DNA of 64,000 nucleotides from an uncultured Phycisphaerales bacterium (GTDB lineage: Bacteria > Planctomycetota > Phycisphaerae > Phycisphaerales > SM1A02): assembly GCA_949373145.1 (NCBI GenBank), contig CASICI010000020.1:1-64000 (forward strand), in the 5' to 3' direction. Of the stretch, positions 26,121 to 40,649 are shown piece after piece. Position 1 is the stretch's first letter, and every line of letters starts with the position of its first letter. The notes under the pieces are model-generated. The model saw only the letters and a list, made by a program, of their open reading frames with translations. It searched no databases and had not been told where the DNA came from. The position numbers and the translations under genes are program-made.

Positions 26121-27359
26121 ATGCACTCCGAAGACGGACAGAAGAAGACACACGACATCGTCGCCCTTGCCCCGACGTTCAACAATGAACGGACGGTCAT
26201 AGGGATCGTGAGCCGGGCCCTGGAGCGATGCGGCAGTCTGGTGGTGATCGATGACGGTTCGACCGACGGCACTCGAGCCCTGCTTGATGCCTGGAAGAAG
26301 GCGCATCCGCAGGATGACGTCAGGATCGTTCGACATGACGTGAATCGTGGAAAGGCGGAGGCGCTCAAGACCGGCTTCGACCTGGCACGGCGTGCCGGGT
26401 ACACCCACGCACTCACAATAGACACCGATGGACAACATGATCCCGATTTGATCCCTGACTTCATGCGTGCTTCAGAAGCGAATCCGGACTCGATCATTCT
26501 GGGGGAGCGTGACATCAGACACCCGGACTACCCGACTCGCTCACGGTTCGGACGCAGACTGTCGGATCTTGCCACCAGGCTTGAAACCGGAACCCAGATC
26601 GAGGACACGCAATGCGGATTCAGGGTCTACCCCCTTCGAATCTTCGAGACCATCAGCTGTTGCATGGGTCGTTATGCCTTTGAAGCCGAGATTCTGACTC
26701 GTGCCGCCTGGGCTGGAGCCGGCATCCGAAACATACCGATCACATGCATCTATCAACCAGCCGGTGAGCGCGTGTCACATCTTCATCCGGTCTACGACGG
26801 GCTGTTGGGAGCATTGATTCACTTTCGCCTGCTGGGAAGAACCCTGGTACCGATTCGATTTACCAGGGTACCTGACTCGATCGGGGGCGAATCGGCACAC
26901 CGATCGGGATCAGGAATCTCGAGGCTGGCGTCATGGTTCAGTCCACGACATCTCTGGCGACAGATTCGAAATGATCCCGCGAGTCGATCGACCGTGGCGG
27001 CAGGCGTCGGCCTGGGTGCGTTCATAGGATCGTTGCCCTGCTTCGGAGTCCATGCCCTGCTCGGTCTTTATCTGGCGAAGAGATTGAAACTGCATCCGTT
27101 GACCGTCGTGGCGGGGACACAGATTTCGATGCCGCCCATGAGCCCCGTGATCGTCTTTGCAAGCATCTGGGTCGGGTTCACCATGCTTCATTTCAAGACA
27201 CCGGTCCTCGCGGACTTCACCGATCTCAGCGTGTGGGACTTGTTCGGTCAGGTGATTCTCGAATGGACAGTGGGATCGATCGTGGTTGGAACCATCCTCG
27301 GCGTGACTCTGGGACTGGCCACGTCAGTGGCGCTCAGATTGATTCCCGAGAAACGATGA
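26121..27359 (+). CDS. Glycosyltransferase family 2 fused to DUF2062-like membrane domain
   Basis: IVALAPTFNNERTVIGIV..VVIDDGSTDGT..ALTIDTDGQHDPD; C-term VAAGVGLGAFIGSLPCFGVHALLGLYLAKRLKLHPLTVVAGTQISMPPMSP. Confidence 0.88.
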   Translation: MHSEDGQKKTHDIVALAPTFNNERTVIGIVSRALERCGSLVVIDDGSTDGTRALLDAWKKAHPQDDVRIVRHDVNRGKAEALKTGFDLARRAGYTHALTIDTDGQHDPDLIPDFMRASEANPDSIILGERDIRHPDYPTRSRFGRRLSDLATRLETGTQIEDTQCGFRVYPLRIFETISCCMGRYAFEAEILTRAAWAGAGIRNIPITCIYQPAGERVSHLHPVYDGLLGALIHFRLLGRTLVPIRFTRVPDSIGGESAHRSGSGISRLASWFSPRHLWRQIRNDPASRSTVAAGVGLGAFIGSLPCFGVHALLGLYLAKRLKLHPLTVVAGTQISMPPMSPVIVFASIWVGFTMLHFKTPVLADFTDLSVWDLFGQVILEWTVGSIVVGTILGVTLGLATSVALRLIPEKR

Positions 27360-28121
27360 CACGGCATCACCGCCGTGATCGGCGGGTAGGTAGGGTTCGA
27401 CGCCGATGAGTTCATCGAGTCTGACGAACTCGAATCCCTGCGCCCGGATTTCCGCGATCAGAAGAGGCAACGCGTCGATCGTGGCTTGAGGGTCGCGCCG
27501 TCCAAAGGGATCGGTGCCATCATGCAGAACGATGATCGAGCCTGATCGGGTGGTGCGGGCAAGGCGTGCGAGGATCCGCTTCGAGGTCGTCCGCACACCA
27601 TCGAAACCGCGACAACTCCAGGTGATCGTGGTGTATCCACGATTGCGCGCGGACGTCATCATCCTTGGATTACGCAGGCCCATCGGGGGGCGAAAGAATG
27701 CCGGACGTCGACCGATGGCCGACATGATGAGCGCATCGGTCCGTGCGAATTCTTGATCCCAATATCGAGACCAGCGCAGGGATCCGACATGGCTGTGCGT
27801 GAAACTGTGGTTTCCCAGCACGTGACCATCAGCGTGGATCCTTGAAAGGAGCGCACCGTGATCGACCGCATTGCTTCCGATCACGAAAAAGGCCGCGGAA
27901 ACCTTCTCGCGACGAAGGATGTCGAGAATCAGAGGTGTGAAGGAGTCATCGGGACCATCGTCGAACGTGAGTGCGACCACCCGACGCCGAAGATCGAGAC
28001 CTTGATGAACCACCGTTCCGAAGAGCATGCTCCGAGGATTCGAGACACCACGCAGGACGACGACACAGAACGTCAGAAATGCCAGCAGAATCGTTGCGAA
28101 GATGATGAATACGGTGAACAT
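27324..28121 (-). CDS. Polysaccharide deacetylase (NodB-like)
   Basis: RRRVVALTFDDGPDDSFTPLILDILRREKVSAAFFVIGSNA..HVLGNHSFTHSH..RPPMGLRNPRM. Confidence 0.92.
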   Translation of the reverse strand: MFTVFIIFATILLAFLTFCVVVLRGVSNPRSMLFGTVVHQGLDLRRRVVALTFDDGPDDSFTPLILDILRREKVSAAFFVIGSNAVDHGALLSRIHADGHVLGNHSFTHSHVGSLRWSRYWDQEFARTDALIMSAIGRRPAFFRPPMGLRNPRMMTSARNRGYTTITWSCRGFDGVRTTSKRILARLARTTRSGSIIVLHDGTDPFGRRDPQATIDALPLLIAEIRAQGFEFVRLDELIGVEPYLPADHGGDAVSSFLGNQSERH

Positions 28122-28130
28122 GAGTGTTGG

Positions 28131-39822: not shown

Positions 39823-39841
39823 AATGGTACACAGTGCCATT
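39823..39841. promoter_or_regulatory. Imperfect dyad in the divergent ACP/methyltransferase intergenic region
   Basis: AATGGTAC-ACA-GTGCCATT, 7 of 8 arm positions complementary. Confidence 0.4.
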
Positions 39842-39881
39842 CATCGATGCCAGAAAGAACACCTGAACCCGGAAGTGATGA

Positions 39882-40649
39882 ATGAGATCGGAGCAGATGA
39901 CAGAGGAAACCGACGAGGAACTGGAGCGAATCGAGTTCGAAGAGAGCCCTCGACCTGAGGCCGATACGGCCGATGCACGACTGTATTCGAAGGCCGCACC
40001 TCTCTACGACAGAATCAACCTGAGCGTCAGCTTCGGAAATGGATACAGCTACCGAAGAGAGGAGATCCAAGCACTGGACATCGCACCGGGTGATCAAGTC
40101 CTCGACGTCGGATCCGGCACGGGCATCCTGGCACGGGCCGCCATGGACTCGACGGGAACCACCGGCCGGGTCGTCGCACTCGATCCCTGCCGGGAGATGC
40201 TGCAAATCGCACGCGCCTCCGGAGTCATCGAAACGGTTCTGGGGTCGGTGGACGACATTCCATTCGAGAAGGACACCTTCGACGTGGTGACCGCAGGATA
40301 TTCACTCCGCTATGCACGAGACATCGAGCATGGACTTGCCCAGATTCGAAACGTGCTGAAACCCGGTGGACGGGTATTGATTCTCGAGATCACACCACCA
40401 GGCAACAGACTGCTTCGCGCATTGACCCGTGCGTACATTCTCATCGGAGCGAGGGCCATCGCACTGCTGGCGACACGATCATTGACATCGCAGCGACTGC
40501 TGGGTCATCTCTGGAATGAGATCCGAACCACTCCCCAACCGAAGGAATTCACGGACGCACTTCGTGCTGCGGGGTTCGAACGATGCCTCTGCCGCAGAAA
40601 GCACGGAATGCTGACGGCATACACCGCAGTCAAGTCATCAGACACCTGA
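39882..40649 (+). CDS. Class I SAM-dependent methyltransferase (UbiE/COQ5-like)
   Basis: LYSKAAPLYDRINLSVSFGNGYSYRREEI, VLDVGSGTGILARAA, VTAGYSLRYARDIEHGLAQIRNVLKPGGRVLILEIT. Confidence 0.85.
   Translation: MRSEQMTEETDEELERIEFEESPRPEADTADARLYSKAAPLYDRINLSVSFGNGYSYRREEIQALDIAPGDQVLDVGSGTGILARAAMDSTGTTGRVVALDPCREMLQIARASGVIETVLGSVDDIPFEKDTFDVVTAGYSLRYARDIEHGLAQIRNVLKPGGRVLILEITPPGNRLLRALTRAYILIGARAIALLATRSLTSQRLLGHLWNEIRTTPQPKEFTDALRAAGFERCLCRRKHGMLTAYTAVKSSDT

Follow-up and report, generated by a model that had tools for sequence, protein, structure and literature searches.

Organization and extent of the gene island

The window is a 64,000-nucleotide stretch of DNA from an uncultured Phycisphaerales bacterium, corresponding to positions 1–64000 of contig C20 of the genome assembly G000 (2.10 Mb in 42 contigs, 75.5% complete). 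It contains an island of genes for a putative aryl-polyene pathway, the centre of which is a ketosynthase (KS) joined to a chain-length factor (CLF) in one polypeptide. The genes were identified by searches with domain and family profiles (Pfam and TIGR models), with matches far beyond chance, and are arranged as follows.

26068–40778, no single strand: whole island, 13 genes, 14.7 kb; block absent from the congener G593
26121–27359, plus strand: GT2 glycosyltransferase with C-terminal DUF2062 (PF00535 and PF09835; weak PpgS-like match)
27324–28121, minus strand: NodB-type polysaccharide deacetylase (PF01522; counterpart arcN in Azoarcus, PMC3949708)
28131–30728, minus strand: MMPL/RND-type exporter (PF03176)
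30725–31483, minus strand: LolB-like lipoprotein of 252 amino acids (lipobox Cys25; AlphaFold fold)
31483–32964, minus strand: AMP-dependent ligase, proposed 3-hydroxybenzoate:acyl carrier protein ligase (PF00501 and PF13193; ArcT counterpart, PMC3949708)
32961–34355, minus strand: FAD-dependent halogenase of the CndH/CmlS group (solved relatives and motifs)
34352–35284, minus strand: chorismatase of the FkbO/Hyg5/XanB2 family, predicted to form 3-hydroxybenzoate (TIGR04444; Hyg5 structures)
35277–37496, minus strand: fused ketosynthase (residues about 1–395) and chain-length factor (about 396–739) (residues, tree, ApeC profile, model)
37493–38428, minus strand: lipid A/lysophospholipid-type acyltransferase, LPLAT (PF03279)
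38425–39225, minus strand: LolA-like periplasmic carrier (PF03548; weak match to LolA2_flexi of flexirubin clusters)
39128–39559, minus strand: FabZ-like dehydratase (PF07977 and FabZ models; GHFPGRPIVPGV and ESLAQLSG motifs)
39546–39815, minus strand: acyl carrier protein, ACP (PF00550; LDSLD phosphopantetheine site)
39882–40649, plus strand, divergent: UbiE-family methyltransferase, proposed aryl O-methyltransferase (PF01209; within the island)

All the genes named in the original prediction lie where it had placed them, with strong domain matches, and the overlapping starts and stops, the NodB deacetylase, and the divergent methyltransferase are as it described. The minus-strand genes from the ACP to the MMPL exporter overlap by 1 to 14 bp, which is consistent with one coupled operon. 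The start of the LolA gene as called (39225) overlaps the FabZ gene by about 100 bp, and the true start is probably located in frame downstream of this position.

The limits of the island are evident from the comparison with the congener G593, in which only ~204 bp replace positions 26,068–40,778 and the flanking genes are kept at ~80% identity. When the window is aligned to locus L226 by blastn, segments 24365–26067 and 40779–41326 are neighbours there. The missing block opens just before the GT2/DUF2062 gene and closes just after the methyltransferase gene. Because both genes are inside the block, they are part of the island. Therefore, the extent of 27324–40649 proposed originally, which included the methyltransferase, has to be enlarged to the left to 26,068, adding the GT2 gene. 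The arcuflavin genes arcE, arcM, and arcN agree with the membership of the glycosyltransferase, methyltransferase, and deacetylase (PMC3949708). The methyltransferase also adjoins the cluster in G611, L098, L099, and L129, and the NodB deacetylase is found in proteobacterial chorismatase clusters as well. A role of the methyltransferase as a quinone housekeeping gene is unlikely, given its position inside the island and the lack of a close ortholog in the congeners. The GT2 enzyme probably makes the sugar head group.

The island is present or absent as one unit between the congeners, which may reflect either gain or loss. An origin from a mobile element was rejected: there is no tRNA and no direct repeat longer than 8 bp at the ends, and the GC content is like that of the flanks. 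The ACP, FabZ, LolA, and LPLAT domains are common singly, as would be expected of housekeeping fatty-acid and envelope genes that are neighbours by chance. We give such a coincidence practically no credence in view of the coupled operon, the absence of the block from the congener, the recurrence of the same gene set in many relatives, and the presence of housekeeping FabF and FabZ-like copies elsewhere in the genome.

Beside the island, a flavodoxin gene occurs twice, as a frameshifted copy to the left (18632–19147) and an intact copy just to the right (40810–41324), with 71% nucleotide identity between them. The YceI gene and the pyridoxal-phosphate-dependent genes of Cys/Met metabolism (41326–43988) are also absent from the matching site of G593, and constitute a second small difference from that genome.

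Ketosynthase and chain-length factor in a single chain

The ketosynthase and chain-length factor form one open reading frame (ORF) of 739 amino acids, and full-length fused orthologs are present among 40 aligned proteins. Residues C148, H281, and H318 of the KS half are invariant in these 40 relatives, and Arg554 of the CLF half occupies the position of the Cys. In the maximum-likelihood tree, which includes 22 planctomycete rows with one locus entered twice, the planctomycete KS halves are sister to E. coli ApeO and the ketosynthases of proteobacterial chorismatase clusters (support 98/83, and 99/96 for the grouping that includes the Thermoanaerobaculia KS). They are located apart from the FabF of their own genome, ApeR, and the KS pair of contig C33. 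The tree places the KS half in the aryl-polyene/xanthomonadin ketosynthase clade, and not with FabF, ApeR, or an unrelated lipid ketosynthase, in agreement with the pathway class that had been predicted. The C-terminal halves score 140–180 bits with an iterated profile of E. coli ApeC, which gives about 20–100 bits for ordinary ketosynthases and unfused relatives; by this measure the C-terminal half is assigned as an ApeC-type chain-length factor. Judged from the sequences of the two halves, the island shares its KS and CLF ancestry with the aryl-polyene and xanthomonadin pathways.

In proteobacteria, the KS and CLF are encoded by two neighbouring genes that overlap and are ordered like the halves of the fusion (KS at 12408–13595 and CLF at 11605–12408 of L122, for instance), and therefore the planctomycete form can be explained as a simple fusion of neighbours. 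The AlphaFold model of the fused protein has a pLDDT of 88.7 and a pTM of 0.92, and its top full-length Foldseek match is the KS-CLF didomain of PfaC (PDB: 6RIW), with a TMq of 0.79 and 15% sequence identity. The single chain is predicted to fold into a PfaC-like KS-CLF pseudodimer, with the KS and CLF in the same overall arrangement as in PfaC, where they are likewise on one chain. However, PfaC is part of a polyunsaturated fatty acid (PUFA) megasynthase, whereas the planctomycete fusion arose within the ApeO/ApeC family. A search of the open-access literature found no fused KS-CLF in papers on aryl polyenes.

The fold match to PfaC also bears on the nature of the product. PUFA synthases, in which the KS and CLF are covalently linked, make chains that are not fully conjugated, and the island has no ketoreductase (KR) and one dehydratase. 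The product could thus be a different aryl lipid, for example an aryl fatty acid with a short or partly reduced chain, and not a coloured polyene. Such a product is improbable, since both halves of the synthase are of aryl-polyene type, no enoyl reductase is encoded in the island, and the accessory genes match those of pigment clusters (PMC3949708).

Additional ketosynthase genes were observed at other loci. Locus L102:6106-8666 from Thermoanaerobaculia (Acidobacteriota) contains a chorismatase gene as well as KS and CLF genes that adjoin each other without being fused and are related to the planctomycete fusion. Contig C33 (L077:6575-10807) encodes a Class-II 3-deoxy-D-arabino-heptulosonate 7-phosphate (DAHP) synthase followed by a Cys-less, CLF-like KS and an active-looking KS, which form a second, separate KS/CLF-like pair beside a shikimate-entry enzyme. 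This pair was considered as the KS-CLF of the pathway and rejected, because it groups apart in the KS tree. An ORF of 2160 amino acids on contig C5:15201-19022 has KS and short-chain dehydrogenase/reductase (SDR)-type matches, and resembles a type I polyketide synthase.

Starter-unit, halogenase, and export genes

The protein encoded at 34352–35284 is a member of the FkbO/Hyg5 chorismatase family with conserved catalytic Glu and Cys, as had been predicted. Residues G208, C294, and E301 are invariant in 15 relatives and match Gly240, C327, and the catalytic E334 of Hyg5, respectively; the role of Glu334 and the subfamily residues are described in PMC7170507. The equivalents of C327 and G240 are common to nearly every aligned relative and do not separate Hyg5 from XanB2. 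The best solved relatives of the halogenase are halogenases of the CndH/CmlS group, and K86 together with the motifs WxWxI (WFWLIP) and FxDPxxSTG (FIDPVFSTG) is conserved across relatives. The catalytic residues of the chorismatase and halogenase are kept in all aligned relatives.

The 252-residue protein, described earlier as a second LolA-like lipoprotein, is a lipoprotein with lipobox Cys25 invariant in relatives. It has no family match in profile searches, and its likeness comes from the AlphaFold model (pLDDT 81), which Foldseek assigns to the LolA/LolB fold with a TM-score of up to 0.69 to LolB. A longer lipoprotein-like protein of ~480–550 residues is located beside the MMPL exporter in L080:12559-14010, L086:512-2161, and L089:17-1684, and is absent from the window. 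An ABC transporter pair is found near the KS-CLF gene in L082, L090, L096, L097, and L098. No MMPL match was found in loci L090 and L096–L098, which suggests that these clusters use another export route.

Distribution and relation to characterized clusters

We counted the fused KS-CLF as present when its match had an E below 1e-60. By this threshold, 38 of the 301 members of the order that were sampled, or about one in eight, encode it; the genome studied here is among them, and two congeners are without it. A separate phylum-wide draw of 401 genomes gave matches outside the order that are weak and mostly from ORFs of unfused size (about 360–500 amino acids); no fused KS-CLF from outside the Phycisphaerales was seen in this draw. 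Among 23 planctomycete loci that have a match to the KS-CLF, several of them cut by contig ends, the recurrent partners are LPLAT (20), chorismatase (19), AMP ligase (18), halogenase (16), FabZ (16), and GT2, which adjoins the KS-CLF gene in 13. In genome G367, which has two replicons and which we infer to be that of the cultured strain Phycisphaera mikurensis, the orthologous fused KS-CLF gene adjoins the chorismatase gene, and homologs of the halogenase (44%) and ligase (39%) are located elsewhere on the chromosome, far from it. One arylpolyene cluster has been published for P. mikurensis, only as an antiSMASH count in a table (PMC8882080).

In gene content, the island agrees with the arcuflavin and xanthomonadin-type clusters that have been tested by experiment (PMC3949708, PMC3691225). 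The arcuflavin (arc) cluster of Azoarcus sp. BH72 contains a counterpart of every island gene: chorismatase, halogenase, methyltransferase, deacetylase, AMP ligase, ACP, KS, CLF-like protein, dehydratase, glycosyltransferase, acyltransferase, LolA, and exporter (PMC3949708). It differs in having the ketoreductase arcH, a second dehydratase, separate KS and CLF, a distribution over two loci, a dialkylresorcinol (DAR) partner cluster, and a pigment that is not brominated. The xanthomonadin-type cluster of Xanthomonas and Lysobacter (PMC3691225) shares the XanB2-type chorismatase, a KS with adjacent CLF (ORF17/16), the halogenase in Xanthomonas, a GT2 homolog, LolA, and exporters, whereas its KS and CLF are unfused, it has two dehydratases, and its dedicated ketoreductase (ORF13) is needed for the pigment. 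The aryl-polyene (APE) systems of E. coli and Acinetobacter (PMC8253772, PMC8358021, PMC8041823) share the ApeO/ApeC-type KS and CLF, ACP, ligase, LolA, MMPL, lipoprotein, GT2, and acyltransferase. Unlike the island, they are without a chorismatase and halogenase, and have ApeR, ApeQ, two ACPs, and two dehydratases. A domain search of the 13 island genes found no DarA or DarB that would indicate a flexirubin/DAR-polyene hybrid. In summary, the island has the aryl-acid source, activating ligase, ACP, dehydratase, LolA, MMPL, lipoprotein, LPLAT, and GT2 of aryl-polyene clusters, and lacks two of their features, the separate KS and CLF subunits and the dedicated ketoreductase in the cluster.

Proposed pathway and the ketoreduction step

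The island very likely specifies an aryl-polyene lipid pathway of the xanthomonadin/arcuflavin type, and its predicted product is a halogenated yellow pigment resembling that of Xanthomonas. Membrane pigments of this class absorb at about 420–460 nm. The chorismatase would convert chorismate to 3-hydroxybenzoate, which the AMP ligase would load onto the ACP. The flavin halogenase would put Br or Cl on the ring at some stage, and the methyltransferase would cap the phenol. The single-chain KS-CLF would extend the starter with malonyl units, housekeeping FabG would reduce each beta-keto group in trans, and dehydration by the FabZ-like enzyme would give the conjugated polyene, which the acyltransferase, glycosyltransferase, and deacetylase may join to a lipid or sugar anchor. 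The MMPL exporter, LolA, and LolB-like lipoprotein may then move the product to the outer membrane. Placed in the membrane, it could protect the cell against light and oxidants.

Several observations weigh against the pathway as drawn. The island encodes a single ACP and a single dehydratase, in contrast to the pairs found in APE systems. The third Gly of the Hyg5 subfamily (G164 in Nat-hyg5, about G173 in Hyg5) is Cys in the island chorismatase, and therefore the ratio of 3- to 4-hydroxybenzoate is uncertain; Cys is also present at this position in XanB2-type enzymes of Stenotrophomonas. Assignment to the Hyg5 (CH-II) subfamily from residues alone was rejected, since two of the three diagnostic positions fit and the third does not. 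FkbO-type chemistry is unlikely from the residues. The cluster of Azoarcus has a halogenase gene and its pigment is without bromine (PMC3949708), which shows that bromination cannot be assumed from such a gene; halogenation of the planctomycete pigment is a prediction. No ApeQ-type ketoreductase is encoded in the window or in and near more than 20 planctomycete loci within the fetched flanks, and the FabG of Acinetobacter cannot replace ApeQ in vitro (PMC8041823).

The Azoarcus precedent raises the question of whether the halogenase-like enzyme is instead a flavin monooxygenase that hydroxylates the ring or chain, in which case the pigment would carry no halogen. There are monooxygenases among the related flavoproteins (QhpG is an example), and some planctomycete clusters have no halogenase gene. 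Nevertheless, the best solved relatives are halogenases, and the conservation of Lys86, WxWxI, and FxDPxxSTG makes hydroxylation rather unlikely.

A FabG-like ketoreductase is present in 13 proteobacterial chorismatase clusters. The possibility that a ketoreductase is hidden beside the cluster was rejected for every planctomycete locus, as far as the fetched flanks reach. The original prediction placed the ketoreductase and the phosphopantetheinyl transferase (PPTase) elsewhere in the genome; a PPTase-family match and a FabG, at positions 38265-38981 of contig C19, are found there, but no dedicated ApeQ-type ketoreductase was. In the genome as a whole, ApeQ is matched best by the FabG encoded next to FabF (~41% identity), and the match is equally good in genomes with or without the cluster. 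A fragment of a FabG C-terminus, perhaps a remnant duplicate, lies just upstream of the intact gene (C19:37768-37983). The best ApeQ match is again FabG in seven other cluster-bearing genomes that are 93–99% complete. In the tree, the planctomycete FabGs form a clade separate from that of the cluster ketoreductases and ApeQ. All 12 FabGs from planctomycetes have Phe as the gate residue, and all 14 cluster ketoreductases have Leu or Ile there. The gate residue and the ACP-binding patch were given as the reason for the failure of FabG in Acinetobacter (PMC8041823). Because the Acinetobacter FabG cannot stand in for the dedicated enzyme, the reduction step poses a real question.

Ketoreduction may be performed either by a recruited planctomycete FabG, the housekeeping enzyme being the best candidate, or by a divergent SDR. 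We tentatively propose, with confidence that falls a little short of even, that the aryl-polyene line was rebuilt in this order: the KS and CLF were joined, the dedicated ketoreductase was lost, and elongation became coupled to housekeeping FabG. Alternatively, the same pathway may use a dedicated ketoreductase from neither the ApeQ branch nor FabG, encoded in the missing quarter of the genome or among the other SDRs. Only 75.5% of the genome is covered by the assembly, several cluster-bearing genomes are rich in SDRs (26 ApeQ-like matches in G428), the genes of the Azoarcus pathway occupy two loci far apart (PMC3949708), and the P. mikurensis halogenase and ligase genes are far from the KS-CLF gene. 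The seven nearly complete genomes with FabG as the best match speak against such an enzyme, which we consider a doubtful but serious candidate.

Pigments of planctomycetes are usually ascribed to carotenoids, and in the papers found, arylpolyenes in Planctomycetota are mentioned only as antiSMASH counts. The island would represent a complete xanthomonadin-like pathway that is conserved in Phycisphaerales and has a patchy distribution there. Its covalent KS-CLF would fix the stoichiometry of the two subunits at 1:1, which may be useful for the study of chain-length control. If FabG is coupled to polyene elongation, the two pathways would no longer be kept apart, as they are reported to be in Acinetobacter. 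The identity of the reductase that acts in polyene formation is a question that can be addressed in the cultured type strain Phycisphaera mikurensis.
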